Under the pieces are notes generated by a model, which saw only the letters and a list, made by a program, of their open reading frames with translations, did not search any database and had not been told where the DNA came from. Shown here piece by piece: positions 22,587-36,748 of a DNA stretch of 64,000 nucleotides (position 1 is its first letter; each line of letters starts with the position of its first letter). A program made the translations under genes and the position numbers. The stretch comes from Candidatus Thorarchaeota archaeon (GTDB lineage Archaea > Asgardarchaeota > Thorarchaeia > Thorarchaeales > Thorarchaeaceae), in NCBI GenBank assembly GCA_011364905.1, contig RDNZ01000007.1, positions 1 to 64,000 of the forward strand. Direction: 5' to 3'.

Positions 22587-22705
22587 TTACCCTAGCCTGC
22601 ATTTAGGAAGGGGCTTTCTTAATTTTGTATTCAGATGGGTAAATTTAAACTTTAACTCTGTATTAAGATAAACCAATGGTGTGAAGACAGTTGACGGAGG
22701 TCTTT

Positions 22706-22981
22706 GTGAAGCTCATGAACAAGGGACTCAAACATGAGGAGCATGACAAATTCCCGTTTGAAACAAGTGAGAACGCCACTATTGGAGATTTAATCGATGG
22801 GCTACATGAGGAGTATGGGGAGAGATTTGAAATCTACCTAGATGATAGAGGCAAAAGAACCTTGAGAAGAGATACAGTAGTCATCGTTAACGGAATGAAC
22901 ATGGTTGCAAGAAAAGGTGTAAAGACAAAACTGTCAAAGGGCGACCTTATTGTTTTCATGATTGCGGCTGTTGGTGGATAG
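22706..22981 (+). CDS. MoaD/ThiS-like beta-grasp protein with C-terminal Gly-Gly
   Basis: A small ubiquitin-fold protein (91 residues from GTG 22706). It ends in AAVGG, the di-glycine tail that E1-like enzymes adenylate. The preceding strand (DLIVFMIA) and the VIVNGMNM turn fit MoaD/ThiS and archaeal SAMP proteins. GTG 22706 follows GGAGG by 5 bases; TTG 22691 would give a longer first strand with a poor site. It could serve sulfur transfer for molybdopterin/tungstopterin (there is an AOR in the window) or protein tagging. No E1 or JAMM gene is nearby. Confidence 0.75.
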   Translation: MKLMNKGLKHEEHDKFPFETSENATIGDLIDGLHEEYGERFEIYLDDRGKRTLRRDTVVIVNGMNMVARKGVKTKLSKGDLIVFMIAAVGG

Positions 22982-22994
22982 TACTGAATAAGAG

Positions 22995-23013
22995 GAGGGC
23001 GAAAAGTACCCTC
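22995..23013. terminator. Hairpin between MoaD-like and GlcF-like genes
   Basis: GAGGG (22995-22999) pairs with CCCTC (23009-23013) over a 9-base loop, in the 34-base gap between convergent stops. Weak but well placed. Confidence 0.3.
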
Positions 23014-23015
23014 AC

Positions 23016-24212
23016 TCAATCTTCAGGGAAATAATCCGGTTCAAGGATCTCAGGACTGATAATACCTGCAGAAACAGCTAACAGCTCAGCTAGATCAAGG
23101 ACTCGGACTTCCAAGTCTGCTTCATACATTCCATGTGTGAGGTTCATTTCACATGCAGGGCAAATAGTAGCCATCAGTTCTGCATCAGTCTTAACAAAGT
23201 CGCGAATGCGTTCGTCTGATACCTTCTGAGAGTGGTCAGGGAACATTATCTTGCACCCGCCGCCACCACCACAACAAAATGCATGTTCACGATTTCTGGA
23301 CATCTCGATGAATTCTACTCCTGGAATCGATTCGATGACCTTACGGGGTGGCTCGTAGATGTCCCTGTACCGCCCAATCTCACAGGGGTCGTGGTATGTA
23401 ATTTTCTTTTTCACCGACTGCTTGAGTTTGAGTTTCTCTTCTTTAACAATCTCTTCTAGAACCTCACTTGTATGCCGGACCTTGATTGGGAGTTTTTCAA
23501 TTCCAAGGAGCTTAGGATATTCCTCATCAAAGGCCCTGAAGCAACTGGGACAAGGCGTGATAATCTCCTTGACACCGCGATCCTGCAGTTTTTTGAGGTA
23601 TGCTTCAGCGTATTTCTTGGAGTGCTCCATCTTTCCAGTAATCCAATAGGGAGTGCCACAACAGGTCTGGTCTTCACCAAGAAAGTCGAGTTCATACCCA
23701 GCTGCTTGAAGAAGCTGAACAAGAATGTTGGTTTTCTCCTTGAAACGATGACTGGCAAGACATCCGGGAAAGAATAGAGTCCCTGAACCTTTTTTGAACT
23801 CAAGACCTTCTGACCATTTGTTGTGAACTTTTGTGGGGTCAGCGAAGATGTTTCCCGAGGAAGTCACTGTGTCAGCCATATGTGCTCCAGCTTCTGGGAT
23901 TTTAATCCCTTGATCGATGAAGTCTTGACGCATCGCTTTAGTGACTTCAATCACATCAATTTGAGCGGCCTTTTTGCACTCTTCTCGACATCGTCCACAC
24001 ATAAAGCATCCAAATACTCGCTCTGCGAGGTCCTCAGAGTATTCAAGTTTGCCTTCTAGAATTGCTCGTGCTATAGCCATTCGGCCTCTCGCTGTCGAGG
24101 ATTCCCAGTATTGGGTGAAAACCTCTGGGCAACGGTCGTTGTAGTCGAAACCGCGACAAAACTCACACCTCCCACAGGCATAGATCATGTCTTTGTATTC
24201 TTCTATCCTCAT
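23016..24212 (-). CDS. Fe-S subunit of a hydroxyacid oxidase (GlcF/CCG-domain), pair 1
   Basis: A 398-residue protein with two N-terminal 4Fe-4S motifs (CGRCEFCRG...C and CFMCGRCREEC) and two CCG domains (TCCGTPYW near 182 and FCCGGGGGC near 313). This is the layout of GlcF, GlpC and HdrD-like electron carriers. Its ATG overlaps the stop of the upstream FAD subunit gene by 4 bases, so the two are translationally coupled. It probably passes electrons from 2-hydroxyacid oxidation to a membrane or soluble acceptor. Confidence 0.85.
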   Translation of the reverse strand: MRIEEYKDMIYACGRCEFCRGFDYNDRCPEVFTQYWESSTARGRMAIARAILEGKLEYSEDLAERVFGCFMCGRCREECKKAAQIDVIEVTKAMRQDFIDQGIKIPEAGAHMADTVTSSGNIFADPTKVHNKWSEGLEFKKGSGTLFFPGCLASHRFKEKTNILVQLLQAAGYELDFLGEDQTCCGTPYWITGKMEHSKKYAEAYLKKLQDRGVKEIITPCPSCFRAFDEEYPKLLGIEKLPIKVRHTSEVLEEIVKEEKLKLKQSVKKKITYHDPCEIGRYRDIYEPPRKVIESIPGVEFIEMSRNREHAFCCGGGGGCKIMFPDHSQKVSDERIRDFVKTDAELMATICPACEMNLTHGMYEADLEVRVLDLAELLAVSAGIISPEILEPDYFPED

Positions 24213-25591
24213 CGCAGTTCCTCCTCTGGTATGTAGATTCCTCGTTGCAAGATGTTTTTGGGGTCCAGAGTCTTTTTGAGTGTCTTTAGCAATCGATAAT
24301 ACCCAGTATCACGTTCCGCTACGAATCTCCGAAGGCCATCCCGCCCTCCAATCCCGTAAGGAACAACTGGTCCTCGCAATGTGATTTCATCAATCTCATC
24401 AGCCATTTTTACTAGTTCTTTCCATTCTTCAGGTTCATTGTAATTGGTGACCATAAAGGCAAGCCAGTCCCTCGGGAGGATTTGCCCGCCAAACCCAGCT
24501 TTCGTGTATCCACGCTTCTCTATGACCTCTTCTCTCCAGATTCTATACAAGAAAGTGATGTCATCAATCCTCAGAGATCCTGAACCAAAGAAGTGCCAAA
24601 CACCTGTATTGAACAGGTCTTGAAGTCCAGTAAGAATGCGACCAAAATAGTCATCAGCTGGGGCACGGTCTCCAATCTCGCCGCCTAGTTCTTGGATTTT
24701 CGCAATTACCTTCTTCTTCCTGTGGTCAACAATCTCCCGCTCATAACCAAAAATGTCTATCATCATGAAGAAGACGTCCGGTGCGGAGGGATCTACCCAC
24801 AGATAGACCCCTTGCAAAAACTCGTCGCCCACATGTCTATTGATGAAGTGTCCAAACTCGATGACGTCGTTGAGTGTCTTCATTGTAGCTGTAAATCGCT
24901 CAGAAATATCAGTCACAGGACGTATTCGTAATGAGAGTTCAGTACAGACACCAAGAATACCCTCTGCGCCAATGAACATCCCAGCCAAGTCGGGACCCAG
25001 GCATTGGCGCTTGAATTTGCCTGCACTCGGCCATGCAGCAGAACCAGTCTCCACAACATCTCCGTTTGGTAGAACCATTTCTAGGGAGATGATGTCCTGG
25101 TTCCCATGAAATCCGAACTTAGCAGTTGAGTGTGGTCCACCACCAGCTTTCATGACAGATCCTCCAACTGTCATTGCAGGACCCCCAGCCTCACTACAGA
25201 GATACGTCAGACCTTGTTTTCGTAGCTCTTGATCCAATTTCGCCCAGGTGCAGCCAGGTTGCACAGAAGCAACAAGATCTCTATCATTGATGTTTACAAT
25301 CTTGTTCATCCGTCCTAAATCAAGCATGATTCCAGATTCCTGAGGAAGGTAAGCATCCCAATGAGAAGTTCCGCCTCCGCGAATGTAGACTGGAACATTC
25401 TTCTCATTCGCTATCTTGAGAATCGCTTGAATTTCCTCACGGGTTTCAGGCATTGCAACATGAGTTGGCATCTTTTGTTCTGATGGACTTAAGTCACGAC
25501 TATACGGCAGCAAGTCGAAATTTCGATCGGTGACCCGACTTGGACCTACAACATCTTCTAATAGAGAGGTGATTTTTTTGATATCAACCAT
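24209..25591 (-). CDS. FAD-linked 2-hydroxyacid oxidase (GlcD/D-lactate dehydrogenase type), pair 1
   Basis: About 460 residues. An FAD-binding-4 domain (VYIRGGGTSHW for the pyrophosphate loop, GAEGILGVC later) is followed by the FAD-oxidase C-terminal domain ending in LDPKNILQRGIY. Typical substrates are D-lactate, glycolate or 2-hydroxyglutarate. The start ATG 25591 follows GGAG; TTG 25606 is possible. With the CCG protein it forms a two-gene unit like glcDF. A second, diverged pair is at 34172-36748. Confidence 0.85.
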   Translation of the reverse strand: MVDIKKITSLLEDVVGPSRVTDRNFDLLPYSRDLSPSEQKMPTHVAMPETREEIQAILKIANEKNVPVYIRGGGTSHWDAYLPQESGIMLDLGRMNKIVNINDRDLVASVQPGCTWAKLDQELRKQGLTYLCSEAGGPAMTVGGSVMKAGGGPHSTAKFGFHGNQDIISLEMVLPNGDVVETGSAAWPSAGKFKRQCLGPDLAGMFIGAEGILGVCTELSLRIRPVTDISERFTATMKTLNDVIEFGHFINRHVGDEFLQGVYLWVDPSAPDVFFMMIDIFGYEREIVDHRKKKVIAKIQELGGEIGDRAPADDYFGRILTGLQDLFNTGVWHFFGSGSLRIDDITFLYRIWREEVIEKRGYTKAGFGGQILPRDWLAFMVTNYNEPEEWKELVKMADEIDEITLRGPVVPYGIGGRDGLRRFVAERDTGYYRLLKTLKKTLDPKNILQRGIYIPEEELR

Positions 25592-25702
25592 TGTGGCACT
25601 CTCCAATAGTAATAGTCTTGGGGCTCACCGATTAATTAAAGACTGCGGTTCGAATGCAATTTAAGAAGAGATTATAAAATTCAGATGCTGAGGAAAGGAA
25701 GC

Positions 25703-26830
25703 ATGAACCCGCGAGAGAGATTCCTTGCAGCTGTCAATCATGAAGAGCCGGACAGAGTGCCGTTGGACTATTGGACAACTCCTCAAGCATACGAGGGTTT
25801 GCGTGACCACATAGGAATTGTATCTCCAGAAACTCAAGAATGGGGAATCATGTCTTCTTGGAAAACATCAGAGGAATTACTCAGACGTCTAAATGTGGAC
25901 TTCAGACGCGTCTACATGAATCCAGCAGCTGATTTTGAACCCAAAATTCTCCCAGATGGTTCCACTGAAACTGAGTTTATGTGTGGAATGAAATTGATAG
26001 GTGGATACTACGAGGTCACATACTATCCCTGGGCTGAGTTCACCGAGGTTGAACAGGTTGAGGATTTCGAATGGATTGACCCAGATGATCCATCTAGAAT
26101 GGAAGGAGTTCGGGATTGGGCAAAACACCTCCATGAGGAAACAGATTATGCGGTTGTTGGTATGGTTGGCGGTCCTTGGGGAGCTTTCGAGGTTGTAGCT
26201 CATTACATGAGGGGCTTCGACAAGTTTCTCATTGACCTTCTGAGGCATCAAGACCTCGCTGTAGCAATGATGGAAAAGAGCGCTCGGCTCGCTATTGAAA
26301 TGAACAGAGTGTTCTTAGACGAGGTTGGGGAATTTCTGGACATTGTACAAGTCGGTGATGACCTTGGTCATCAAGATGGGCTGTTGATCAGTCCCAGAAT
26401 ATACAGAAGCATGGTGAAACCAAGACACAAGAGAATCTACAGTGATATCCACAAGAGAGCACCACATGTCAAGATACTTTATCATTCATGTGGAGCAATC
26501 GAGCCAATGATTGAAGATTTGATTGAAGTTGACGTAGATATTCTTAATCCAATTCAACCTCTTGCCAAGGGAATGGACTCATTTGAGCTCAAACGCAAAT
26601 ATGGTAATCGACTCACGTTTCATGGCGGAATTGACCTGCAGTTCGCAATGTCCGCGCAGGGATCATTGGACGATTTAAGGAAAGAGATTGACACTCGGAT
26701 CGATGCACTTGCACCTGGTGGAGGATACATCCTAGCTCCAGCACATAATATACAACCAGAGTCTACACCAGAGAAGATTCTCGAACTGTATGACTATGCA
26801 ACGAAGAGAGGCGTATATCCCATAAACTGA
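25703..26830 (+). CDS. Uroporphyrinogen-decarboxylase (URO-D) family protein
   Basis: A 375-residue TIM barrel of the URO-D superfamily, starting at MNPRERFLAAV with AGGAA just upstream of ATG 25703. The segment EEPDRVP near the start, YHSCGAI (a Cys seen in the MtaA/CmuA-type methyltransferase branch) and HGGIDLQ are visible. The family divides into heme enzymes and corrinoid or coenzyme methyltransferases. No heme genes are nearby and the SCG motif fits the methyltransferase-like branch, but no corrinoid protein is adjacent. Substrate unknown. Confidence 0.75.
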   Translation: MNPRERFLAAVNHEEPDRVPLDYWTTPQAYEGLRDHIGIVSPETQEWGIMSSWKTSEELLRRLNVDFRRVYMNPAADFEPKILPDGSTETEFMCGMKLIGGYYEVTYYPWAEFTEVEQVEDFEWIDPDDPSRMEGVRDWAKHLHEETDYAVVGMVGGPWGAFEVVAHYMRGFDKFLIDLLRHQDLAVAMMEKSARLAIEMNRVFLDEVGEFLDIVQVGDDLGHQDGLLISPRIYRSMVKPRHKRIYSDIHKRAPHVKILYHSCGAIEPMIEDLIEVDVDILNPIQPLAKGMDSFELKRKYGNRLTFHGGIDLQFAMSAQGSLDDLRKEIDTRIDALAPGGGYILAPAHNIQPESTPEKILELYDYATKRGVYPIN

Positions 26831-26831
26831 A

Positions 26832-27506
26832 TCATGGAATTGGTCGGTCTTTGTGAAGATCGTGAGGATCCTCACCCTCATCTAGCTTATCAGACCACCA
26901 CTCATCTGTAGCAACAACCTGTTCCGCATGAGATAGAACTTCTTCTATTTGATGTGCTGGAATAACGACTATTCCGTCACCATCTCCAAAAATCAAATCG
27001 CCGGGATTGACTGTCACTCCTCCGCACACGATGGGCTTTTGAACGGAATCCATGTCCAGTCTACCTCTCATTGTACCGGGGTGACGCCCTCGCGCAAAGA
27101 CTGCAAAATTCATCTTATCAATATCATGAATATCTCTGGAGGTCCCATCAACCACAGCACCTCTGACTCCTTTAGGTATGCCAATCTTAGTCAGTATCTG
27201 ACCCCAGGCAGAGCAATCTGTAGCTCCAGCCATGTCTATGACAATCACATCGCCCTCATCTGCGTCTGTTGCTAGGCTCATGAATAAATCCAGCTGCTTC
27301 TCATCATATGGCCGAGTATCTGGAGAGCGTACCAATCTTCCTGTCCGTGCGAAACCAGCTATCCGACTGCACTTCGTTAGAGGCGTGATGCCTCGATCCA
27401 TACACACCGCCCCAATTCCTATTTCATCTGCCGCATCAGAGAGAGCTGCAACATACAGCTTCAGTGTTCGTTCTATGATTTCATTCCGAGTTGCCATTAT
27501 TGACAT
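26832..27506 (-). CDS. RraA family protein (hydroxy-oxoacid aldolase type)
   Basis: A 224-residue RraA-fold protein. GAVVDGTSRD is the conserved region that carries the Arg and Asp of the RraA/HMG-aldolase active site. Relatives cleave 4-hydroxy-4-methyl-2-oxoglutarate or decarboxylate oxaloacetate; E. coli RraA instead inhibits RNase E. The start ATG 27506 overlaps the upstream TGA by one base and has AGGAG, so it is coupled to the preceding gene. The catabolic setting favours the aldolase role. Confidence 0.8.
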   Translation of the reverse strand: MSIMATRNEIIERTLKLYVAALSDAADEIGIGAVCMDRGITPLTKCSRIAGFARTGRLVRSPDTRPYDEKQLDLFMSLATDADEGDVIVIDMAGATDCSAWGQILTKIGIPKGVRGAVVDGTSRDIHDIDKMNFAVFARGRHPGTMRGRLDMDSVQKPIVCGGVTVNPGDLIFGDGDGIVVIPAHQIEEVLSHAEQVVATDEWWSDKLDEGEDPHDLHKDRPIP

Positions 27507-28078
27507 CACTCCTTCTCCCAGCGATATATGCAATGGTCATCCCCACGCATCATGCATTTGGGAATAGACAGGGTTACGTTGAAGTCGACAGCTTGTCCAA
27601 TTCCTTCATCAATCTTTGTTACGTACTCGCAAATATCCGGCCCAGCACCTTTGGCTTTGAATGACTCAATCCAAGGGCATGATGTCACCTTTAGCTCAAA
27701 GCACTTCTCACTCTCAGTTTCAATAGAGAGTTCGAATCCGAAGTATGGATGCGCTGCATCAAAAAAATCGAAAATAGAGTGTAGGTCTCCACTCCTCAGT
27801 GATCCTTGCTTGATAGCAGCCCTTCCGAGTTCGAAACCATGGTGCCGATTCACTTCACTGATAGCATCCAATCCCTTTTTGCCCATTAGCTTTCGTATTA
27901 CTTCAACATAGATTGCATGGGTATCAGCTAGTGTATGCATATTGGTTCTTCGAACATCATCCGCGCCTGGATTAGACATTGCCAACATTTTCCATTGAAC
28001 TTTGAACTTGGGATTACTAAGGTATCTTAAATCTCCTCTGAGTTGGCTACTACGGTTTGTTAAATTAATATAGTCCAT
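27506..28078 (-). CDS. L-2-amino-thiazoline-4-carboxylic acid hydrolase family protein
   Basis: About 190 residues. The C-terminal part (VTSCPW...CMMRGDDHCIYRW) matches the ATC-hydrolase family, where conserved Cys and the GD.HC.xR motif are typical. The exact start is uncertain: the ATG at 28078 lies only about 14 bases from a TATA-like box, so a downstream start such as ATG 27988 is possible. It is translationally coupled to RraA. Family members are often of unknown substrate. Confidence 0.6.
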   Translation of the reverse strand: MDYINLTNRSSQLRGDLRYLSNPKFKVQWKMLAMSNPGADDVRRTNMHTLADTHAIYVEVIRKLMGKKGLDAISEVNRHHGFELGRAAIKQGSLRSGDLHSIFDFFDAAHPYFGFELSIETESEKCFELKVTSCPWIESFKAKGAGPDICEYVTKIDEGIGQAVDFNVTLSIPKCMMRGDDHCIYRWEKE

Positions 28079-28096: not shown

Positions 28097-28131
28097 TAGG
28101 AAATTCTCTGCGACTACAAAAGGTGCTGCCT

Positions 28132-29292
28132 ATGCTTGCTGAGAGAAATATCGATGTTCCTGCTAGTGAGATTAGAAAGGTCTACAATAATATCATTGGG
28201 AGAACCGACGTTTTCGACATGACTGTTGGGATACCCGATTATGACACTCCTCAGCATATCAAAGATGCAGCAAAGAGAGCCATCGACGAAGGATATACGA
28301 CGTATACTCACAATGCAGGGTATATTGAGGTCAGGGAGGCACTCGCTGAAAAACTCAAGCGGGACAACAATATAACAGCAGACCCAGCTACAGAACTGAT
28401 TTGTACAGCAGGCGGCATGGGAGCTCTTGTTCTCGCAAACCTAGTTATGATTGATCCTGGGGACGAGGTCATCTATCCAGATCCTGGCTTTGTAAGTCAT
28501 TATGCACACATAAAACTCGCTGGTGGCATTCCAGTCCCAGTCCAACTAAAAAAAGAGAATGATTTCGGTATAACTGCAGAAGATGTTGCAAACCTCATAA
28601 CACCAAAAACAAAAATGATTGTGCTAAACTCACCTAACAATCCAACAGGGGGAGTTATACCCAATAAAGAATTGAAGCAAATTGCGGAGCTTTGCATTGA
28701 GAACGACATCTATGTGATTGCTGATGAGGCATATGAAAAATTCAGGTACATAAATGAAGAACCCCAATTTATTGGCTCATTTGAGGGGATGAAAGAACGA
28801 ACAGTCTCTATATTCTCTTTCTCTAAGACCTATGCAATGACCGGGTGGCGGATAGCTGTTGCCACAGGCTCCAGTGAACTAATTGGTGCAATGACTAAAC
28901 TGCAAGAACACATTATTGCAATGCCTACTTCCATTGCGCAAAAGGCTGCAGAGGCGGCAGCAATAGGACCTCAGGACTGTGTCAACGAGATGCTCAATAC
29001 ATTTCGAAAACGAAGGGAGATAATCACAAAGGGACTAAGCGAAATTGAAGGAATTGAGTTGCATCCTCCAGGTGGGGCGTTTTATGTGTTTCCAGATGTA
29101 TCAGCTTATGGAGTCAAATCGTACGATTTGGTATACAAGATTTTGAATGCGACAAATGTAGCGACACTTCATGGTTCAGCCTTTGGAAAATACGGAGAGG
29201 GATTCCTGAGGTTGTGCTATGCTGTTTCAACAGAGAGAATCAATGAAGCTCTGAGCAGACTTGATGCCTATCTGCCAAAACTATTGCACTGA
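28132..29292 (+). CDS. Class I/II PLP aminotransferase
   Basis: A 386-residue fold-type I aminotransferase, aspartate-aminotransferase-like. The PLP lysine is in SFSKTYAMTGWR, the Asn/Asp/Tyr residues are in NSPNNPTGG and IADEAYEKF, and the substrate Arg is near the C-terminus in FLRLCYA. ATG 28132 has AGGTG 6 bases upstream; GTG 28123 is also in frame. It starts the plus-strand run that continues with the glycyl radical enzyme about 50 bases downstream. The amino donor is unknown. Confidence 0.9.
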   Translation: MLAERNIDVPASEIRKVYNNIIGRTDVFDMTVGIPDYDTPQHIKDAAKRAIDEGYTTYTHNAGYIEVREALAEKLKRDNNITADPATELICTAGGMGALVLANLVMIDPGDEVIYPDPGFVSHYAHIKLAGGIPVPVQLKKENDFGITAEDVANLITPKTKMIVLNSPNNPTGGVIPNKELKQIAELCIENDIYVIADEAYEKFRYINEEPQFIGSFEGMKERTVSIFSFSKTYAMTGWRIAVATGSSELIGAMTKLQEHIIAMPTSIAQKAAEAAAIGPQDCVNEMLNTFRKRREIITKGLSEIEGIELHPPGGAFYVFPDVSAYGVKSYDLVYKILNATNVATLHGSAFGKYGEGFLRLCYAVSTERINEALSRLDAYLPKLLH

Positions 29293-29341: not shown

Positions 29342-31654
29342 ATGACATCTCGGAGTAAGCGTCTCAAACAGCAAATGCTCGAGTCAGAACCAACCATTTC
29401 ATCAGAACGAGCGGTTCTATTTACAGAGTATATGAAGGAGCATTGGTCAGATTCAACAATTCTCCGAAATGCTGGTGCTTTTGCTTATGTACTTGATAAC
29501 ATGACTATCCGGATTGAACCAGAGGAACTCATCGTTGGAAACATGGGGCCAACTCCTCGTTCTTGTCAGGTATTTCCAGAGTATAGCTGGAAGTGGATTG
29601 AGGATGAATTAGATCGGTTCGCCAAGAGAAGAACCGAGAAGTTCATGATAAGTGAGGAGGACAAGCAGAACCTCCGCGAAGTCTTCAAGTTCTGGAGGGG
29701 AAAAAGCACAGCAGAACTGGCAGGATTTGCGATGCCAGCAGAATCAATAAAGGCTTCAAAAGCGGGTCTCTTTACGATTGGTGCTCCAGGGACTGGTATT
29801 GGCCATGTCATTGTCGATTACAACGAAGTCTTACACAAAGGGCTCCTTAGGATCCTGAATGAGTTGAACGGGAGAGAGGGAGACTACTTCGAAGCGGTTC
29901 GCATTGAGATTGAAGCGGTAGTGAGATTCTCTGAACGCTTCTACCATCTTGCCGCAGAGATGGCTACGAAAGAGGTTGATAAAGAACGAAAGGCAGAACT
30001 ATTGGAAATCGCACGAATTTGTAAGAAAGTTCCTGCTGAACCCGCTGGAACATTCTACGAGGCACTCCAGTCATTCTGGTTCATCCACTTACTGATACAG
30101 ACTGAATCAAATGGTCATTCAATCTCCACAGGTAGGTTTGACCAGTACATGTTTCCATTCTACGAAACAGACCTCAAGAGCGGCAAACTTGATGAAACAG
30201 GAGCTATTGAACTCCTTGAGGTACTCTGGGTAAAGTTATCATCTCTAATCAAAATAAGAAACGAATACTATAGTGTGGCCTTTGCGGGTCATCCCATGTT
30301 TCAAAACCTCACCATTGGCGGTCAGCATGCGAATGGACAAGATGCAACAAATAGCTTAACGAAAGCAATCCTTCAAGCTACAGCGAACATAAGGGTTACA
30401 CAACCAAGTGTTTCATTTCGATGGCACAAGAAAACTCCTGAAGACATCAAATTGCAGGTTGTCGATGTGATCTCGAAAGGCCTCGGTATGCCAGGTCTCT
30501 TCAACGATAATGCAATAATCCCTATGATGATTGAGAAGGGGACTGATCACTCAGAGGCGCATGATTACTCCATTTTGGGATGCGTTGAGCCAATCATAGG
30601 TGGAAAGTCTGACCCAAGACAGAACATAGGATATGTCAATCTGCCAAAGATTCTCGAAGTGACACTGAACAACGGAAGGGACCCAAAGACAAGTGAATTG
30701 ATTGGCAGGGAAACTGGAGATCCTAGAAGTTTCAAGTCGTTTGATGAATTATGGTTAGCATTTGAAGAACAGACTGACTATACTATTGAGCTGCTGACGC
30801 AGGCAGATAGGGAAGCTGCTAGAGTCCTGGCCAAAAACACGCCGACACCATTTATCTCATCGCTTTTGCAACGATGCAACGAATCGGGCAAGACATTACA
30901 AGAAGGAGGAGCAATCTATAGCTCTGGTGGAATCATGGGTGTTGGAGTGGCAATTGTGGCTGACTCACTCGAGGCTCTCAGGAAATACGTATTCGAAAAC
31001 CGAGAAGTCGCGATGGATGAGATGCTTCAAGTCCTTGCTAAGAACTATGAAGGCTATGAGGAACTCAGAGTCAGGTTAGAGAATGACTCCGAAAAGTATG
31101 GTAATGACATTGAACGAGTAGATCTTCTTGCTAGGAACACTGGCAGGATATTTTGTAATTCAGTTCAGAATCGAATGACGACGAGAAACACTCCTTATCA
31201 TGCTGCTTTGTTCTCAGTGTCTATGTATATTCCGCAGGGGGAGGTACTTGGAGCCACACCAGATGGAAGAAAGGCGGGGTATATGATATCTGATGGTGTT
31301 TCACCCACTCAAAACAGAGATGTCAATGGACCTACTGCAGCCATGAAATCTGTGGCCAGGTTAGATCACTCTCTGTGTTACAATGGCACGCTCTACAATA
31401 TGAAGTTCACACCGGATTTCTTTGAGAATGAGTCAAAGAGAAAGAAGTTCATTGGCATGGTTGATGCGTACTTCGCAATGGGCGGATTTCATGTCCAGTT
31501 CAATGTGGTTTCACGAGAAATCCTTGAAGATGCGAAAGTAAATCCGCTGCAGCATAGAGACCTAATAGTAAGAGTTGCTGGATATAGTGCTTATTTCATC
31601 GAATTGGACCCGTTCGTTCAGGATGAGGTCATTGCTCGAACGGAATTCTCCTAA
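29342..31654 (+). CDS. Glycyl radical enzyme, dehydratase/lyase type
   Basis: A 770-residue member of the pyruvate formate-lyase superfamily. The active-site motif is GCVEP with Cys414 and Glu416; the Cys-x-Glu form marks eliminases (glycerol, propanediol, hydroxyproline dehydratases, choline lyase) rather than PFL, which has Cys-Cys. The glycyl radical is Gly747 in RVAGYSAYF, 24 residues from the end. It needs a radical-SAM activase, but none is encoded in this window. The next genes are a KDG-type kinase and KDPG aldolase, so a sugar acid or polyol is a possible substrate. Oxygen-sensitive, hence anaerobic. Confidence 0.9.
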   Translation: MTSRSKRLKQQMLESEPTISSERAVLFTEYMKEHWSDSTILRNAGAFAYVLDNMTIRIEPEELIVGNMGPTPRSCQVFPEYSWKWIEDELDRFAKRRTEKFMISEEDKQNLREVFKFWRGKSTAELAGFAMPAESIKASKAGLFTIGAPGTGIGHVIVDYNEVLHKGLLRILNELNGREGDYFEAVRIEIEAVVRFSERFYHLAAEMATKEVDKERKAELLEIARICKKVPAEPAGTFYEALQSFWFIHLLIQTESNGHSISTGRFDQYMFPFYETDLKSGKLDETGAIELLEVLWVKLSSLIKIRNEYYSVAFAGHPMFQNLTIGGQHANGQDATNSLTKAILQATANIRVTQPSVSFRWHKKTPEDIKLQVVDVISKGLGMPGLFNDNAIIPMMIEKGTDHSEAHDYSILGCVEPIIGGKSDPRQNIGYVNLPKILEVTLNNGRDPKTSELIGRETGDPRSFKSFDELWLAFEEQTDYTIELLTQADREAARVLAKNTPTPFISSLLQRCNESGKTLQEGGAIYSSGGIMGVGVAIVADSLEALRKYVFENREVAMDEMLQVLAKNYEGYEELRVRLENDSEKYGNDIERVDLLARNTGRIFCNSVQNRMTTRNTPYHAALFSVSMYIPQGEVLGATPDGRKAGYMISDGVSPTQNRDVNGPTAAMKSVARLDHSLCYNGTLYNMKFTPDFFENESKRKKFIGMVDAYFAMGGFHVQFNVVSREILEDAKVNPLQHRDLIVRVAGYSAYFIELDPFVQDEVIARTEFS

Positions 31655-31730
31655 ATAAGCAGCACCAACGGCAGATTTAACATTTCCAAAAGAATCTGAG
31701 CACCCGTCAAACTACTTTGAGTTGTCAAAA

Positions 31731-32726
31731 ATGAGTTATGATGTGGTTACCTTTGGTGAAGTAATGCTAAGGCTCTCTCCTCCCAACTTCAAGAGATTCG
31801 AGCAAACTGAGAGCTTCGATGCGCATGCTGGAGGAGCAGAGATGAATGTCGCAGTGGCGTGCACTCGGTTAGGATTGACGTCTGCCTATATCACAAAACT
31901 AGGTGACAATTCTATTGGACATTTCATCCGGAACAAAGCGAGAGAACATGGAGTGGACACTTCACATATACTCTGGGACCCTGATAGTCGGTGCGGCGTC
32001 TATTTTGTGGAGTTTGGAGCAGCTCCCCGAACCAACCGTGTGATCTATGACCGAAAAGATTCTGCAATAAGCAAGATTAAACCGGGGGAAGTTGATTGGA
32101 AGAAGATTCTGAAAGGGACCAAGCTTTTTCATACAAGTGGAATCACCCCTGCTTTAAGCGCAAGCTGTGCAGCAGCAACAGAAGAGGCTCTTAAGATCGC
32201 TAAAGAGCAAGGAGCCAAAGTCTCATACGATGTGAACTACAGAGGAAAACTGTGGACACCAAAAGATGCTCAAAAGTTCACCGAACCAGCATCAGAGTTC
32301 ATTGACATTCTAATAACAACAGAGGAGGACACAAAGGTTGTCTATGGCATTGAAGGAAAGGACTACGAGGAAGTTGCGGCCAAACTCACTGATAAGTTTG
32401 GATTCGAGATTGTAGTCATCACACTCCGAGAGACCCCATCAGTTTGGTTCAATAAGTGGTCAGTCTTTGCTTATTCAAATGGGAAGGTCTATAGAAGTCC
32501 GGTTTATGACGTGGAGATAGTTGATCGGCTTGGTGGGGGAGATTCTTGTAGCGCTGGATTCATCTATGGCTACCTTGAGCTAAAAAACCTACAGAAAGCA
32601 GTCGACTTTGGCTCAGCATTCTCTGCGCTAAAGCACTCAGTTCCTGGAGACCTTGCATTTGTAAACAAATCAGAGGTTGAAGAACTGACAAAGGGACGCC
32701 AACGCGGATTCCGTATTGAAAGGTGA
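31731..32726 (+). CDS. PfkB family sugar kinase, 2-keto-3-deoxygluconate kinase-like
   Basis: A ribokinase-fold kinase of about 331 residues. The N-terminal signature (FGEVMLRLSPP, then GGAEMNVA) is typical of KDG kinases, and the C-terminal signature is GGGDSCSAGF with the catalytic base at Asp271. It overlaps, or nearly abuts, the KDPG aldolase gene, which directly fits KDG to KDPG to pyruvate plus glyceraldehyde-3-phosphate. Start ATG 31731 is preferred over TTG 31722; neither has a strong ribosome site. Confidence 0.85.
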   Translation: MSYDVVTFGEVMLRLSPPNFKRFEQTESFDAHAGGAEMNVAVACTRLGLTSAYITKLGDNSIGHFIRNKAREHGVDTSHILWDPDSRCGVYFVEFGAAPRTNRVIYDRKDSAISKIKPGEVDWKKILKGTKLFHTSGITPALSASCAAATEEALKIAKEQGAKVSYDVNYRGKLWTPKDAQKFTEPASEFIDILITTEEDTKVVYGIEGKDYEEVAAKLTDKFGFEIVVITLRETPSVWFNKWSVFAYSNGKVYRSPVYDVEIVDRLGGGDSCSAGFIYGYLELKNLQKAVDFGSAFSALKHSVPGDLAFVNKSEVEELTKGRQRGFRIER

Positions 32727-32731
32727 AAGGC

Positions 32732-33382
32732 ATGTGGACAAAGGAAAAAGCAATGAAATTAATCTATGACACAGCTCTGATTCCAATTATTCGTGTTGAG
32801 TCGGCGGATATTGCTTTCAAAGTGGCGGATGCATTTTTGCAGGGAGGCGTTCCCATCATAGAAGTGACCATGAGCGTTCCAGGCGCTGTCGAGGTTGTGC
32901 AACAACTTGTAGAGAAGTTTGGTAATAAGGTCCTGATAGGTTCAGGGACTGTTGTTAGCGGGAAAATGGCTGAGGAAGTCATCAAAGCTGGAAGTGAGTT
33001 CATTGTGAGCCCTAATTATTCTCGTGATTTGATTGAGACTGCAATGAAACATGACAAGCCAATTATACCAGGAGCCCTCACGCCCACTGAGATCTATGAT
33101 GCATACACAATGGGGGCAGATGCGGTCAAAGTATTCCCGTGTGGTATGGTGGGGGGTGCGGATTATCTGAAAGCCATAAGAGGGCCACTGCCCCACATCC
33201 CGCTCGTCCCAACTGGTGGCGTAGAACTAGAAACTGCAGGGTCCATGCTTGAGGCAGGAGCATATGCGCTTGGTGTTGGTGGAGCAATCACTGACAAAAA
33301 AGCCATCAAGGAAGGCCGGTATGAAGTAATTACTGAGAATGTTAGTAAATTTCTTGAGATTGTAAAGGACTACAGGAGGTAA
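32732..33382 (+). CDS. eda: 2-dehydro-3-deoxy-phosphogluconate aldolase (KDPG aldolase)
   Basis: A 216-residue class I aldolase of the bacterial-type KDPG/KHG family. Visible motifs are VEVTMS (catalytic Glu), GSGTV, FIVSPNY, PGALTPTE and the Schiff-base Lys in AVKVFPC. ATG 32732 has AGGTGA 6 bases upstream, inside the kinase stop region; GTG 32723 would overlap the kinase stop. Bacterial-type Eda is less usual in archaea, which more often use the unrelated KDG aldolase, so transfer is possible. Confidence 0.9.
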   Translation: MWTKEKAMKLIYDTALIPIIRVESADIAFKVADAFLQGGVPIIEVTMSVPGAVEVVQQLVEKFGNKVLIGSGTVVSGKMAEEVIKAGSEFIVSPNYSRDLIETAMKHDKPIIPGALTPTEIYDAYTMGADAVKVFPCGMVGGADYLKAIRGPLPHIPLVPTGGVELETAGSMLEAGAYALGVGGAITDKKAIKEGRYEVITENVSKFLEIVKDYRR

Positions 33383-33429: not shown

Positions 33430-33702
33430 ATGATTGAGGGATATTATAAAGAAAGACTGACTAAAGTGATTCAAAAGAAAACGTTTGGTCAGCTTGAGAG
33501 GTTTGCGCTAGACAGTGCTGGAAACACAAAGGTATACAAGCTAAGAGAAGTATTGCAGACATTTGATCCGGTTCATCTAACCATGTACATGGTAGGTGTT
33601 TGTGGAAGAAAGATTAAGGTGAAACTCAATACTTTCGATTTCCCTGATGGCGAACGTAGGGTAGGAATTGAGTTCATTGAGGTTCTTAAATGGGATGAAT
33701 AG
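33430..33702 (+). CDS. Hypothetical 90-residue protein
   Basis: A small soluble protein, mostly alternating strands and charged residues, with no motif I recognise. It lies 47 bases after the aldolase gene with a GGGAGA site upstream and could be the last gene of that run. A roughly 120-base gap with a TATA-like stretch follows before the SCP2 gene. Confidence 0.5.
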   Translation: MIEGYYKERLTKVIQKKTFGQLERFALDSAGNTKVYKLREVLQTFDPVHLTMYMVGVCGRKIKVKLNTFDFPDGERRVGIEFIEVLKWDE

Positions 33703-33826
33703 AGAATCCTCAGAACAGTAGCAGAGCAGCAAGATATACAGCCAGAACGATCAATCAATATGAACCTTTAAGAGATATAACTAAATCCAGCGCTAAATCT
33801 GTACATTCTCATAGGAGCACTTAGAG

Positions 33827-34153
33827 ATGACTCAGGACCTACTAGAACTTATGCAAGAACGAATCACAATCGGATTAGAAAGAGAGAAGACCCATGAAGC
33901 GATACAAGGGTGGGAACGCACAGTCCAACTTACACTGAAGGAAGGACCACAGTACCACTTCATTGTCAAAGACAACAATATCACAGTTCACGAGGGACCT
34001 ATCGATGATCCAGATATGAGGATCCAGAGTGATGAGGACACGATTCGGAAACTGTTTCTTGAAGAGATGAGCGCAAGCTCAGCCATCTTTAAACGCAAGT
34101 TGAAAGTGAAAGGATCGACTTCTGATCTCATGAAGATAAGACACATTTTCTAG
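33827..34153 (+). CDS. SCP2 sterol-transfer-like domain protein
   Basis: A 108-residue protein with the SCP2 pattern: a strand pair (TVQLTLKEGPQYHFIV), DPDMRIQSDEDTIRKL (the family's xDxxIxxxxxD turn and helix), and a final helix after LKVKGS. SCP2 domains bind lipids or acyl chains, and stand-alone archaeal copies are of unknown role. AGGAG lies 9 bases before ATG 33827. It precedes the second hydroxyacid oxidase pair by 18 bases. Confidence 0.7.
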   Translation: MTQDLLELMQERITIGLEREKTHEAIQGWERTVQLTLKEGPQYHFIVKDNNITVHEGPIDDPDMRIQSDEDTIRKLFLEEMSASSAIFKRKLKVKGSTSDLMKIRHIF

Positions 34154-34171
34154 GTCATAGGGGGAAAGCGA

Positions 34172-35584
34172 GTGGCAATTGACAAGAAGATTGCAAAGGA
34201 ATTTGAAAATGCAGTCGGGGCCGAATATGTATCAACAAGACCTGATGTTCTACTAACATATTCACAGACTGCGTCCATGGCAGTCGAGCCTGTTATTCCA
34301 TCTGCGGTTATTCGTCCAGCAAATGCGAAAGAGGTATCTCAGATACTAAAGTTGGCAAACAAGCATAGGATACCTGTGACTCCTCGGTCGGGAGGATCTA
34401 GTCTTCAAGGAGAAGCCATCCCAAAACCGGGAGGAATTGTTGTCGACCTTTTGAGACTGGGTGGCATCACTCTTTACGAAAATCTCCGTTCCGTAACAGT
34501 TGGAGCAGGGGTCACTTATGGAGAACTAGACAAATTTCTAGCTAAGCATGGTCTCTTCCTCCCAGTTTATCCAGAGTCTTCTTTGGTCTGTACTGTTGCG
34601 GGTAATGTGGCCGTGAATGGAGCGGGTGTTGGTTCTAGTCTATATGGGTGCACTGGCGAGATGGTTCTCGGACTAGAAGTAGTTCTCCCTGATGGCACTA
34701 TCATACAGACCGGTTCGGAAGCAAATCCAAATTCGCCAGGGCCATTCATCCGATATGCCTTTGGTCCAGATCTGACAGGTTTGTTCATTGGCTCACTTGG
34801 TAGTTTTGGAATTATTACAAAGGTATCAGTGAAGACATTCAAACGGATGAAGTACTTTGACTATAACATGTACGGATTTGATACTGTTGAACTTGCGGAG
34901 CAGTTCCTCATTGAAATTAAACAGAACGACATCAACGGTCTCTTCACCTCTATCTACTCAGGAGAAGTCCTTGACTTATTCATGGACATGCTCTCGGAGG
35001 AACTTGGGTTCCCACCATTTGAGCATGCAGAGCGCACTGTATCAATGACAATAGGTCGCGTACGTGAAGACATGCTAGAGAGTGACGCTAAACTTGCACG
35101 CGAGATATGTGAGAGATTGGGAGGGAGAGTACTGAATGTCCGAGAAATGCCACAGCAAGAATGGGAGGGGCGCTTTTGGAACTTCGTTCGAGCCTCGTAC
35201 ATACACGGATGGCATTGGAGGACACTTTACCATCATCAGACTCCAACGAACTCGCACAAATCAGTAGACATCATAATGGATGCAATGGACAAATACAGGT
35301 TTCTTGGTCATACAGCTGGCTTTCAATCAGGACATAGCAGTATGAACCTCTATCCTCACCTCTACTTCGACCCGCAAGACAAAGATGAAGAAGAAAAGGT
35401 TGTAAAGGCCCACCAAGAAATAGCGAAAGCCTTGTTCAAATCGGGAGCAGTTCCCTTCAAGCTTGCTGAGTTTTGGAAGGATGCGATTGAGGACATGGAT
35501 GAGTACATGGACTTTCTCAAACATATAAAGAACTCAATTGACCCGAACAACATAATGAATCCGGGAGTGCTTGGAGGGATCTAA
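34172..35584 (+). CDS. FAD-linked 2-hydroxyacid oxidase (GlcD type), pair 2
   Basis: A 470-residue FAD-binding-4 protein paralogous to the one at 24209. The FAD loop is PRSGGSSLQGE, followed by GAGVTYGELD and the LGSFGIITK segment. The C-terminal domain ends in IDPNNIMNPG, the glycolate/D-lactate dehydrogenase signature. Start is GTG 34172 with GGGGGAAAG upstream. It is 3 bases upstream of its Fe-S partner gene, with which it must be co-translated. Confidence 0.88.
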   Translation: MAIDKKIAKEFENAVGAEYVSTRPDVLLTYSQTASMAVEPVIPSAVIRPANAKEVSQILKLANKHRIPVTPRSGGSSLQGEAIPKPGGIVVDLLRLGGITLYENLRSVTVGAGVTYGELDKFLAKHGLFLPVYPESSLVCTVAGNVAVNGAGVGSSLYGCTGEMVLGLEVVLPDGTIIQTGSEANPNSPGPFIRYAFGPDLTGLFIGSLGSFGIITKVSVKTFKRMKYFDYNMYGFDTVELAEQFLIEIKQNDINGLFTSIYSGEVLDLFMDMLSEELGFPPFEHAERTVSMTIGRVREDMLESDAKLAREICERLGGRVLNVREMPQQEWEGRFWNFVRASYIHGWHWRTLYHHQTPTNSHKSVDIIMDAMDKYRFLGHTAGFQSGHSSMNLYPHLYFDPQDKDEEEKVVKAHQEIAKALFKSGAVPFKLAEFWKDAIEDMDEYMDFLKHIKNSIDPNNIMNPGVLGGI

Positions 35585-35587
35585 TCA

Positions 35588-36748
35588 ATGGCAGAGATAG
35601 ATCTTGACGAACTCATAGAGAACTTACTTCAATGTCGTAGGTGCGGCATCTGCCGCAATGCGGTCTATGAGGAAAGAGGATTTGATGGAGTTTGTCCGGT
35701 CTGGAAGAACTCCCCTGGGTTTGAAACCAGTTTTATGCGTGGCCGGATTCAGGTTGCTTTAGCACTCTTGGAAGGAGTTCTTGAAAAGACTCCAGAGAAT
35801 TCTGAAGCGCTTTTTTCATGTACCCTCTGTGGAAACTGCACCGAAATCTGTGCCGCAGAGTTCAATCCTGCGGATTGCCTTGAGGAAGTCAGAGCAGTCC
35901 TGAATGATATTCCTAATGATGTTCGTGATGCAATAGCAGAGAAGATAATCCAGTTTGATAACCCCTATGAGAAAAACAGGAGTCTTAAACGCGAGTGGAT
36001 TAAGGAGGTAGGTTTTGAGATTCCAACCTCTGGTGAAGTCCTCTACTTCACTGGATGTACTGCAGGGATGAAGCTTCCAACTGTCGTCATATCGGCAGCA
36101 AGAATACTCAAAGCCGCAAATATTGAGTTCGCGGTCCTTGAAGAGGAACCATGCTGCGGTAGCGTCATGTTGCGAACAGGAAAAACAGATGAGGCCCGTC
36201 TTAATGCACAGAGGGTAGTAAGCGCAATTCAAAAGTCTGGAGCGAAAAAAGTCATTGTTACTTGCGCAGGATGTTTAAAGACCCTTCGAGAGGATTTTCC
36301 GAAGTTGGGACTCGAGATTCCCGAAGTCCTGCACATAACCGAGATCTTACAGGAAACTGCGGCGTGTAAGAAGCTGAAGCTCAAACCGGTGACAAAAAGA
36401 CTCAAGGTGACATATCACGATCCCTGTCACCTATCTAGAGCTATGGGAGTTTATGATGCGCCAAGAGAAGTAATCATGTCAATACCCAACATTGAGTTTG
36501 TCGAAATGGAAACAAGTAGAGAAACTGCAATGTGCTGCGGAGCTGGAGGGGGTCTTCGTTCATATGATCCTGAGCTTGCAAAGAAGATTGCCGCAGACAG
36601 AGTGATGAGTGCTCATGAAGTTGGGGCGGAGATAATAGCTACTGCGTGTCCGTTCTGCGAGAGCAATCTAAGGTTGGGAGCTGAGCAAATAAACAGCTCA
36701 ATTCGGGTTGCAGATATTGTGGACTTAATAGCTGAGCGCCTGATGTAA
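35588..36748 (+). CDS. Fe-S subunit (GlcF/CCG-domain), pair 2
   Basis: A 386-residue partner of the preceding flavoprotein. The N-terminus has two cluster motifs (CRRCGIC...C, then CTLCGNCTEIC) and two CCG domains (PCCGSV near 184 and MCCGAGGG near 318). Sequence differs enough from pair 1 that the two pairs likely handle different substrates or acceptors. A 7-base-pair hairpin follows. Confidence 0.88.
   Translation: MAEIDLDELIENLLQCRRCGICRNAVYEERGFDGVCPVWKNSPGFETSFMRGRIQVALALLEGVLEKTPENSEALFSCTLCGNCTEICAAEFNPADCLEEVRAVLNDIPNDVRDAIAEKIIQFDNPYEKNRSLKREWIKEVGFEIPTSGEVLYFTGCTAGMKLPTVVISAARILKAANIEFAVLEEEPCCGSVMLRTGKTDEARLNAQRVVSAIQKSGAKKVIVTCAGCLKTLREDFPKLGLEIPEVLHITEILQETAACKKLKLKPVTKRLKVTYHDPCHLSRAMGVYDAPREVIMSIPNIEFVEMETSRETAMCCGAGGGLRSYDPELAKKIAADRVMSAHEVGAEIIATACPFCESNLRLGAEQINSSIRVADIVDLIAERLM

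Follow-up and report, generated by a model that had tools for sequence, protein, structure and literature searches.

Here, we describe a gene row in a 64,000-nt stretch of DNA ("the window") from contig RDNZ01000007.1 (C78) in a draft genome, 3.08 Mb in size, of Thorarchaeota, a lineage of Asgard archaea. The row consists of four open reading frames (ORFs) on the same (+) strand, identified from the window's ORF list and Pfam: an aminotransferase, a glycyl radical enzyme (GRE), a kinase of the 2-keto-3-deoxygluconate (KDG) type (KDGK), and an aldolase of the 2-keto-3-deoxy-6-phosphogluconate (KDPG) type (KDPGA). The aminotransferase and GRE genes are separated by 49 bases and the GRE and kinase genes by 67 bases, while the kinase and aldolase genes overlap by 4 bases. 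Scans of the window for Rfam families and tRNAs gave zero matches. The genes of the row, and the GRE residues discussed below, are as follows.

28123–29292, + strand: class I/II aminotransferase, aspartate/aromatic type, first in the row (PF00155; PDB 1gd9/1dju)
29342–31654, + strand: GRE, 770 amino acids, proposed sugar-acid radical dehydratase (PF02901/PF01228, trees, AlphaFold model)
30581–30589, + strand: C414-V415-E416, the thiyl Cys and the Cys-x-Glu (CxE) Glu of GRE eliminases (alignment with C433/E435 of glycerol dehydratase [GD]; 23/23 Thorarchaeota copies)
30617–30625, + strand: R426 and N428, at the positions of Trp445 and Asp447 in GD and 1,2-propanediol dehydratase (PD) (alignment; 23/23 Thorarchaeota copies)
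31580–31582, + strand: G747, the glycyl radical residue, within RVAGYSAYF (alignment with GD G763; 23/23 Thorarchaeota copies)
31722–32726, + strand: PfkB-family kinase, KDG kinase type, KDGK (PF00294; best PDB match 2afb; GGGD motif)
32723–33382, + strand: class I aldolase of the KDPG/2-keto-4-hydroxyglutarate (KHG) aldolase family (Eda), KDPGA (PF01081; TIGR01182; 1vlw/1wa3)

The GRE has both expected Pfam domains (PF02901, E=1e-204; PF01228, E=1e-32) and the hallmarks of the eliminase class, i.e., a barrel like that of pyruvate formate-lyase (PFL), an RVxGY glycyl loop, and Cys-x-Glu. A first-pass annotation, made from the letters of the window alone, had already picked out Cys414/Glu416 and Gly747, and these residues align on Cys433, Glu435, and Gly763 of GD. 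Among NCBIfam models, the GRE scores above a broad subfamily model only and falls hundreds of bits short of every curated equivalog cut-off. It reaches 584 bits against the HypD model NF043068 (cut-off 1100), 551 bits against the CutC model TIGR04394 (cut-off 1050), 590 and 540 bits against the HpsG/HpfG sulfopropanediol dehydratase models NF048009 and NF048011 (cut-offs 1000), and 584 bits against the PflD-type model NF007437 (cut-off 1109). These curated cut-offs rule out assignment as HypD, CutC, HpsG/HpfG, IAD, HPAD, or PFL.

Phylogeny places the enzyme apart from known families. We built two trees, one of 85 rows and a more careful one of 30 rows, with CutC included only in the larger. 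The Thorarchaeota GREs form one clade (100/100, stem 0.76), which lies outside the six-row clade of GD, PD, and 9rco (100/100). The HypD, YbiW, and PflD branches are all separate from it, as is CutC in the 85-row tree, meaning that none of the characterised clades sampled includes the window GRE. The tree, together with the column of GD Asp447 (see below), rules out membership of the GD/PD family. The closest orthologues are at most 83% identical, and all come from Thorarchaeota records, in one case labelled just "archaeon". Outside the Thorarchaeota clade, neither a search of Asgard genomes nor one of 84,980 species genomes found a relative with >43% identity. The AlphaFold model (pLDDT 91.6) has its best fold matches in PD (5i2a, Z 56.7) and GD (1r8w, Z 56.3); a modelled match of this kind is expected within the superfamily and would speak to fold rather than function. 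Judged by sequence, the window GRE is of a previously unplaced kind, and the members of its clade all come from Thorarchaeota.

We read residue conservation over 23 Thorarchaeota GRE sequences, with GD numbering for reference. C414, E416, and G747 are invariant, and the clade retains the positions of GD H164, H281, S282, C433, E435, and R782. By contrast, GD D447 is replaced by Asn428 and W445 by Arg426 in 23/23 sequences, and Y640 is always Phe. At their own columns, Arg426 and Asn428 are absent from the aligned GD, PD, 9rco, PflD, YbiW, HypD, and CutC sequences. We take the substrate-contacting set of GD to be His164, His281, Ser282, and Asp447; this set is incomplete in the Thorarchaeota GREs, with the first three residues kept and Asp447 replaced. 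Tyr431, present in 22 of the 23 GREs, aligns with HypD Tyr450, whereas GD and PD have Phe. In HypD, Tyr450 hydrogen-bonds the carboxylate of hydroxyproline (PMC7077986). The HypD substrate residues D278, S334, D339, and T645 correspond to H259, F314, M319, and V626 in the window GRE. R426 and N428 are possible contacts to a carboxylate or polyol, and the predicted pocket fits, if circumstantially, a substrate that is both.

The first-pass annotation also named a KDG-type kinase and a KDPG aldolase downstream of the GRE; here, ORF order, Pfam, and the closest PDB relatives agree. The closest solved relative of KDGK is the Thermotoga maritima KDG kinase (2afb, 291 bits), and the GGGD motif is retained, with D274. 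Its best NCBIfam models, a KHG/KDPG aldolase/sugar kinase fusion and the haloarchaeal KDG kinase, are both matched below their cut-offs. KDPGA exceeds the cut-off of TIGR01182 (187 bits versus 156), and its best solved relative is the KDPG aldolase of T. maritima (1vlw/1wa3). Its Schiff-base lysine, K136, and Glu47 are kept in 24/24 aligned Thorarchaeota orthologues; position 51, presumably equivalent to Arg49 of Escherichia coli Eda, is Ser. The two proteins thus look like a matched pair resembling their T. maritima counterparts, and family membership and gene pairing indicate that the kinase/aldolase pair of the semi-phosphorylative Entner-Doudoroff pathway is present. Other Asgard KDG kinases (40–47% identity) lie in different gene contexts and give no substrate clue.

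The GRE, KDGK, and KDPGA genes are inherited, lost, and degraded together. We counted presence and absence over 47 genomes of the family, many of them incomplete metagenome-assembled genomes (MAGs). GRE and KDGK are both present in 30/47 and both absent in 15/47, with only two discordant genomes (Fisher p=3e-10), each of which has a contig end at the gene concerned; one genome, G214, was rejected as a case of kinase without GRE once its contig end was read. KDPGA accompanies KDGK in the same 31 genomes. The order aminotransferase-GRE-KDGK-KDPGA, the conservation of which had been proposed as a check, is kept across the Thorarchaeota family. Since synteny extends over much of the region across the family, gene order by itself carries little weight. 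The joint counts above weigh more, as do two genomes, G180 and G183, in which the GRE gene lies on a separate contig near a thermosome gene, yet the GRE and kinase parts are both retained. In G183 (97% complete), the GRE gene has three in-frame stops (L082:10001-12334), the KDGK gene has two in-frame stops and an altered GGGD motif, and the KDPGA gene has a frame break near its end (L132:3546-5188). No activase matching TIGR02494 was found in this genome, and the aminotransferase and neighbouring genes are still open. This pattern reads as decay of one pathway; draft base errors are possible, but they would need to strike just these genes. In G190, a thioredoxin gene follows the aminotransferase within a few bases, with no GRE-KDGK-KDPGA block between them, whereas in its congener G189 the block sits exactly between the same two genes. 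Six of the genomes without the block (G181, G184, G188, G190, G194, and G195) are 93–98% complete. Co-occurrence, co-retention of unlinked genes (G180), joint decay (G183), and absence of the block (G190) together link the three genes strongly as a functional unit.

The dehydratase of classical semi-phosphorylative Entner-Doudoroff routes is an iron-sulfur, enolase-superfamily, or UxuA/UxaA enzyme. In the 47 genomes, searches that recovered these families in named control genomes found no UxuA or UxaA/GarD (0/47) and ILVD/EDD in only two. The enolase-type domain MR_MLE_C occurs in 12/47 genomes but not in the source genome, and it is uncorrelated with the GRE (9/31 genomes with the GRE versus 3/16 without; p=0.5).

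Because the GRE is joined to KDGK and KDPGA, has a diol-dehydratase-like site with a new Arg/Asn pair, and occurs where classical dehydratases are scarce, we infer that it dehydrates a sugar acid. Specifically, we propose, with a probability of roughly 55%, that the GRE is a radical dehydratase whose product, a 2-keto-3-deoxy sugar acid, enters a semi-phosphorylative Entner-Doudoroff-like route. The broader claim, that it represents a new GRE class, an aldonate dehydratase that replaces the iron-sulfur or enolase-type dehydratase of this pathway in Asgard archaea, we hold to be evenly balanced between true and false. We infer the reaction, substrate, activating partner, and order of steps as follows. 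A radical-SAM activase encoded elsewhere would install the radical on Gly747, from which it would move to Cys414. Cys414 would then abstract the C2 hydrogen of a sugar acid, most likely a five- or six-carbon aldonic acid; Glu416 would deprotonate the C2 hydroxyl, and the C3 hydroxyl would depart as water. Loss of the C2 hydrogen, together with water from C3, would turn an aldonate into exactly the substrate of KDGK, and since the kinase in the unit is a KDG kinase, dehydration would precede phosphorylation. KDGK would phosphorylate the 2-keto-3-deoxy acid, and KDPGA would split the product into pyruvate and an aldehyde phosphate, which would be glyceraldehyde 3-phosphate for a six-carbon acid. 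The sole clear GRE activase of the genome, a TIGR02494 protein, is encoded on contig C43, where its gene adjoins that of another GRE. TIGR02494 activases occur in 28 of the 31 genomes that carry the window-type GRE, the exceptions including the decayed G183. The C43 activase is a candidate partner and probably acts on the window GRE in trans.

Several points weigh against this proposal. Known GRE eliminases act mostly on small terminal alcohols or ring substrates; an aldonate attacked at its C2 hydrogen would extend them to a new class of substrate. R426 is only suggestive, because IslA holds its anion by arginines on other strands, and in HypD the carboxylate is bound by uncharged residues. 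The dehydratase searches covered the UxuA, UxaA/GarD, ILVD/EDD, and MR_MLE_C families, and KDG may have other sources, such as DHDPS-family dehydratases or unsaturated uronates. No activase adjoins the window GRE, and the gene row includes no conserved sugar-acid transporter or sugar dehydrogenase. Lastly, MAG incompleteness could remove adjacent genes together by chance.

This last point, together with the synteny of large parts of the region, would also allow the block to be kept by kinship alone, with the GRE unrelated to the kinase and aldolase. We disfavour such chance association and consider it very improbable, given the co-retention of unlinked genes in G180, the joint decay in G183, the clean absence of the block from G190 with its flanks kept, and the high completeness (93–98%) of six of the block-less genomes. 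A shared locus could also reflect shared regulation rather than a shared pathway, if the GRE were a glycerol/1,2-propanediol-type dehydratase of diols or polyols with an altered pocket, its aldehyde product being consumed in some other pathway. GD and PD are indeed its nearest relatives in sequence (43% identity) and fold (Z 56–57), and the positions of GD H164, H281, and S282 are retained. However, the GRE lies outside the well-supported GD/PD clade, Asp447 and Trp445 are replaced in every copy, the decay and absence of the gene are shared with KDGK-KDPGA, and the row has no adjacent alcohol/aldehyde dehydrogenase or microcompartment genes, all of which make this reading rather improbable.

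Alternatively, the GRE could feed the same route from another substrate, such as a cyclic polyol, an anhydro sugar, or an amino sugar acid, with further steps leading to the 2-keto-3-deoxy acid. Two other CxE GREs, YbiW and PflD, act by opening anhydrohexitol 6-phosphates (PMC12441222). Many loci have an aminotransferase and an APC-type permease nearby, which would suit an amino-containing substrate, and a MIPS homologue lies downstream. We regard this reading as unlikely, although it deserves some weight: the three-gene unit holds no further enzyme, the flanking genes vary, the aminotransferase is dispensable, and a KDG kinase speaks against a phosphorylated GRE substrate. The aminotransferase would have a role if the row encoded a 4-hydroxyglutarate- or hydroxyproline-type route, in which the GRE acts on an amino acid and the aminotransferase and a KHG aldolase lead to pyruvate and glyoxylate. 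Eda-family aldolases also split 4-hydroxy-2-oxoglutarate, HypD is a GRE, and HypD-like paralogues exist in Thorarchaeota. Yet the window GRE lacks the HypD residues D278, S334, D339, and T645 and scores far below the HypD cut-off (584 versus 1100 bits), the aminotransferase is not obligate, and the KDG kinase would be left without a role; we see little chance that this route applies. Radical dehydration of a sugar acid remains our preferred reading, and the enzyme's separate clade and conserved gene order differ from what the first-pass annotation had named as contrary outcomes, namely a clade of known substrate and an unconserved order.

The aminotransferase is closest to PDB 1gd9/1dju (310 bits) and has K235 and R363. 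It had been suggested that it supplies or removes an amino group. We reject it as an obligate step, since the gene is intact both in G183, where the unit has decayed, and in G190, where the unit is missing. It is probably an accessory neighbour with its own use; one could speculate that this is the formation of alanine from pyruvate. Two further blocks flank the row.

22691–28078: conserved upstream block with MoaD-like, CCG and FAD-oxidase pair, UroD-family, RraA-like, and V4R genes (synteny in most Thorarchaeota loci)
33430–36748, + strand: variable downstream block with a small ORF, SCP2, FAD-linked oxidase, and CCG iron-sulfur protein (present in many Thorarchaeota loci)

The upstream neighbourhood, from the MoaD-like to the V4R gene, is syntenic in most Thorarchaeota loci; within it, the UroD-family (MtaA-like), RraA-like, and V4R genes (25685–28078) precede the aminotransferase as a conserved divergent block. 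The downstream genes are swapped for unrelated ones in five loci (L050, L054, L057, L061, and L063), and the SCP2, FAD-oxidase, and CCG genes were rejected as members of the unit because they vary. Two pairs of FAD-oxidase and CCG iron-sulfur genes (GlcD/GlcF-like) flank the unit (23016–25606 and 34172–36748), and some relatives have an extra copy of the downstream FAD oxidase. In G217 (L060:5719-9150), a 1143-aa ORF, by its looks a PAS-domain sensor kinase, separates the GRE and KDG kinase genes.

Other GREs were seen during the analysis. The second GRE of the source genome, encoded with the activase (G000 C43:18616-22031; L064:13616-17031), is 34% identical to the window GRE. Thorarchaeota and other Asgards also have HypD-like GREs (L067:3255-5630, − strand; L134:7240-9645, − strand; and relatives), which keep all tested HypD substrate residues; in three of the four read, Cys-Val-Thr replaces Cys-Val-Glu, possibly indicating a different reaction, and in two loci they adjoin apparent ribosomal-protein genes. 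On a Chloroflexota plasmid (L143:3971-7328), a GRE related to YbiW is encoded with an activase, next to genes for a sugar ABC transporter and a ROK-family protein; this GRE, too, may act on a sugar.

In the open-access literature, we found no description of a GRE sugar-acid dehydratase or of this Thorarchaeota cluster, and nothing joining Thorarchaeota with KDPG aldolase; work joining Thorarchaeota with the Entner-Doudoroff pathway is not evidently about this cluster. Discussion of Asgard GREs has centred on alkyl/benzylsuccinate synthases (PMC8163825). If our proposal is correct, radical chemistry enters central sugar-acid catabolism, GREs acquire a carboxylate-bearing polyol as a substrate, and an anaerobic Asgard lineage has an Entner-Doudoroff-like route without classical dehydratases, with an oxygen-sensitive radical enzyme performing a step left to quite different enzymes in other known organisms. 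The findings also caution against default annotation of Asgard GREs as PFL or alkylsuccinate synthase, and purified proteins would allow a direct test of the pathway assignment.

The window GRE can be compared with several known systems. It has in common with GD (1r8w) and PD (5i2a, 9rco) the fold, CxE motif, glycyl loop, and His/His/Ser polyol set, but it is only ~41–43% identical to them, forms its own clade, differs by Asp447 to Asn, Trp445 to Arg, and Tyr640 to Phe, and lies in a sugar-acid rather than an alcohol-metabolism neighbourhood. HypD, the trans-4-hydroxyproline dehydratase, dehydrates a carboxylate-bearing substrate, as proposed here, and shares the His155 and Tyr431 positions; it belongs to a separate clade, and its D278, S334, D339, and T645 are missing from the window GRE. 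YbiW and PflD, the 1,5-anhydrohexitol 6-phosphate lyases, are likewise CxE GREs of sugar catabolism and show that GREs can enter it via anhydrohexitol phosphates (PMC12441222), but they are ~37% identical, fall in other clades, and act on sugar phosphates made by the phosphotransferase system (PMC12441222). In the semi-phosphorylative Entner-Doudoroff pathway of haloarchaea, and in the KDG branch of T. maritima, KDG kinase is followed by KDPG aldolase, as in the window; what sets the Thorarchaeota row apart is that its candidate dehydratase is a radical enzyme.

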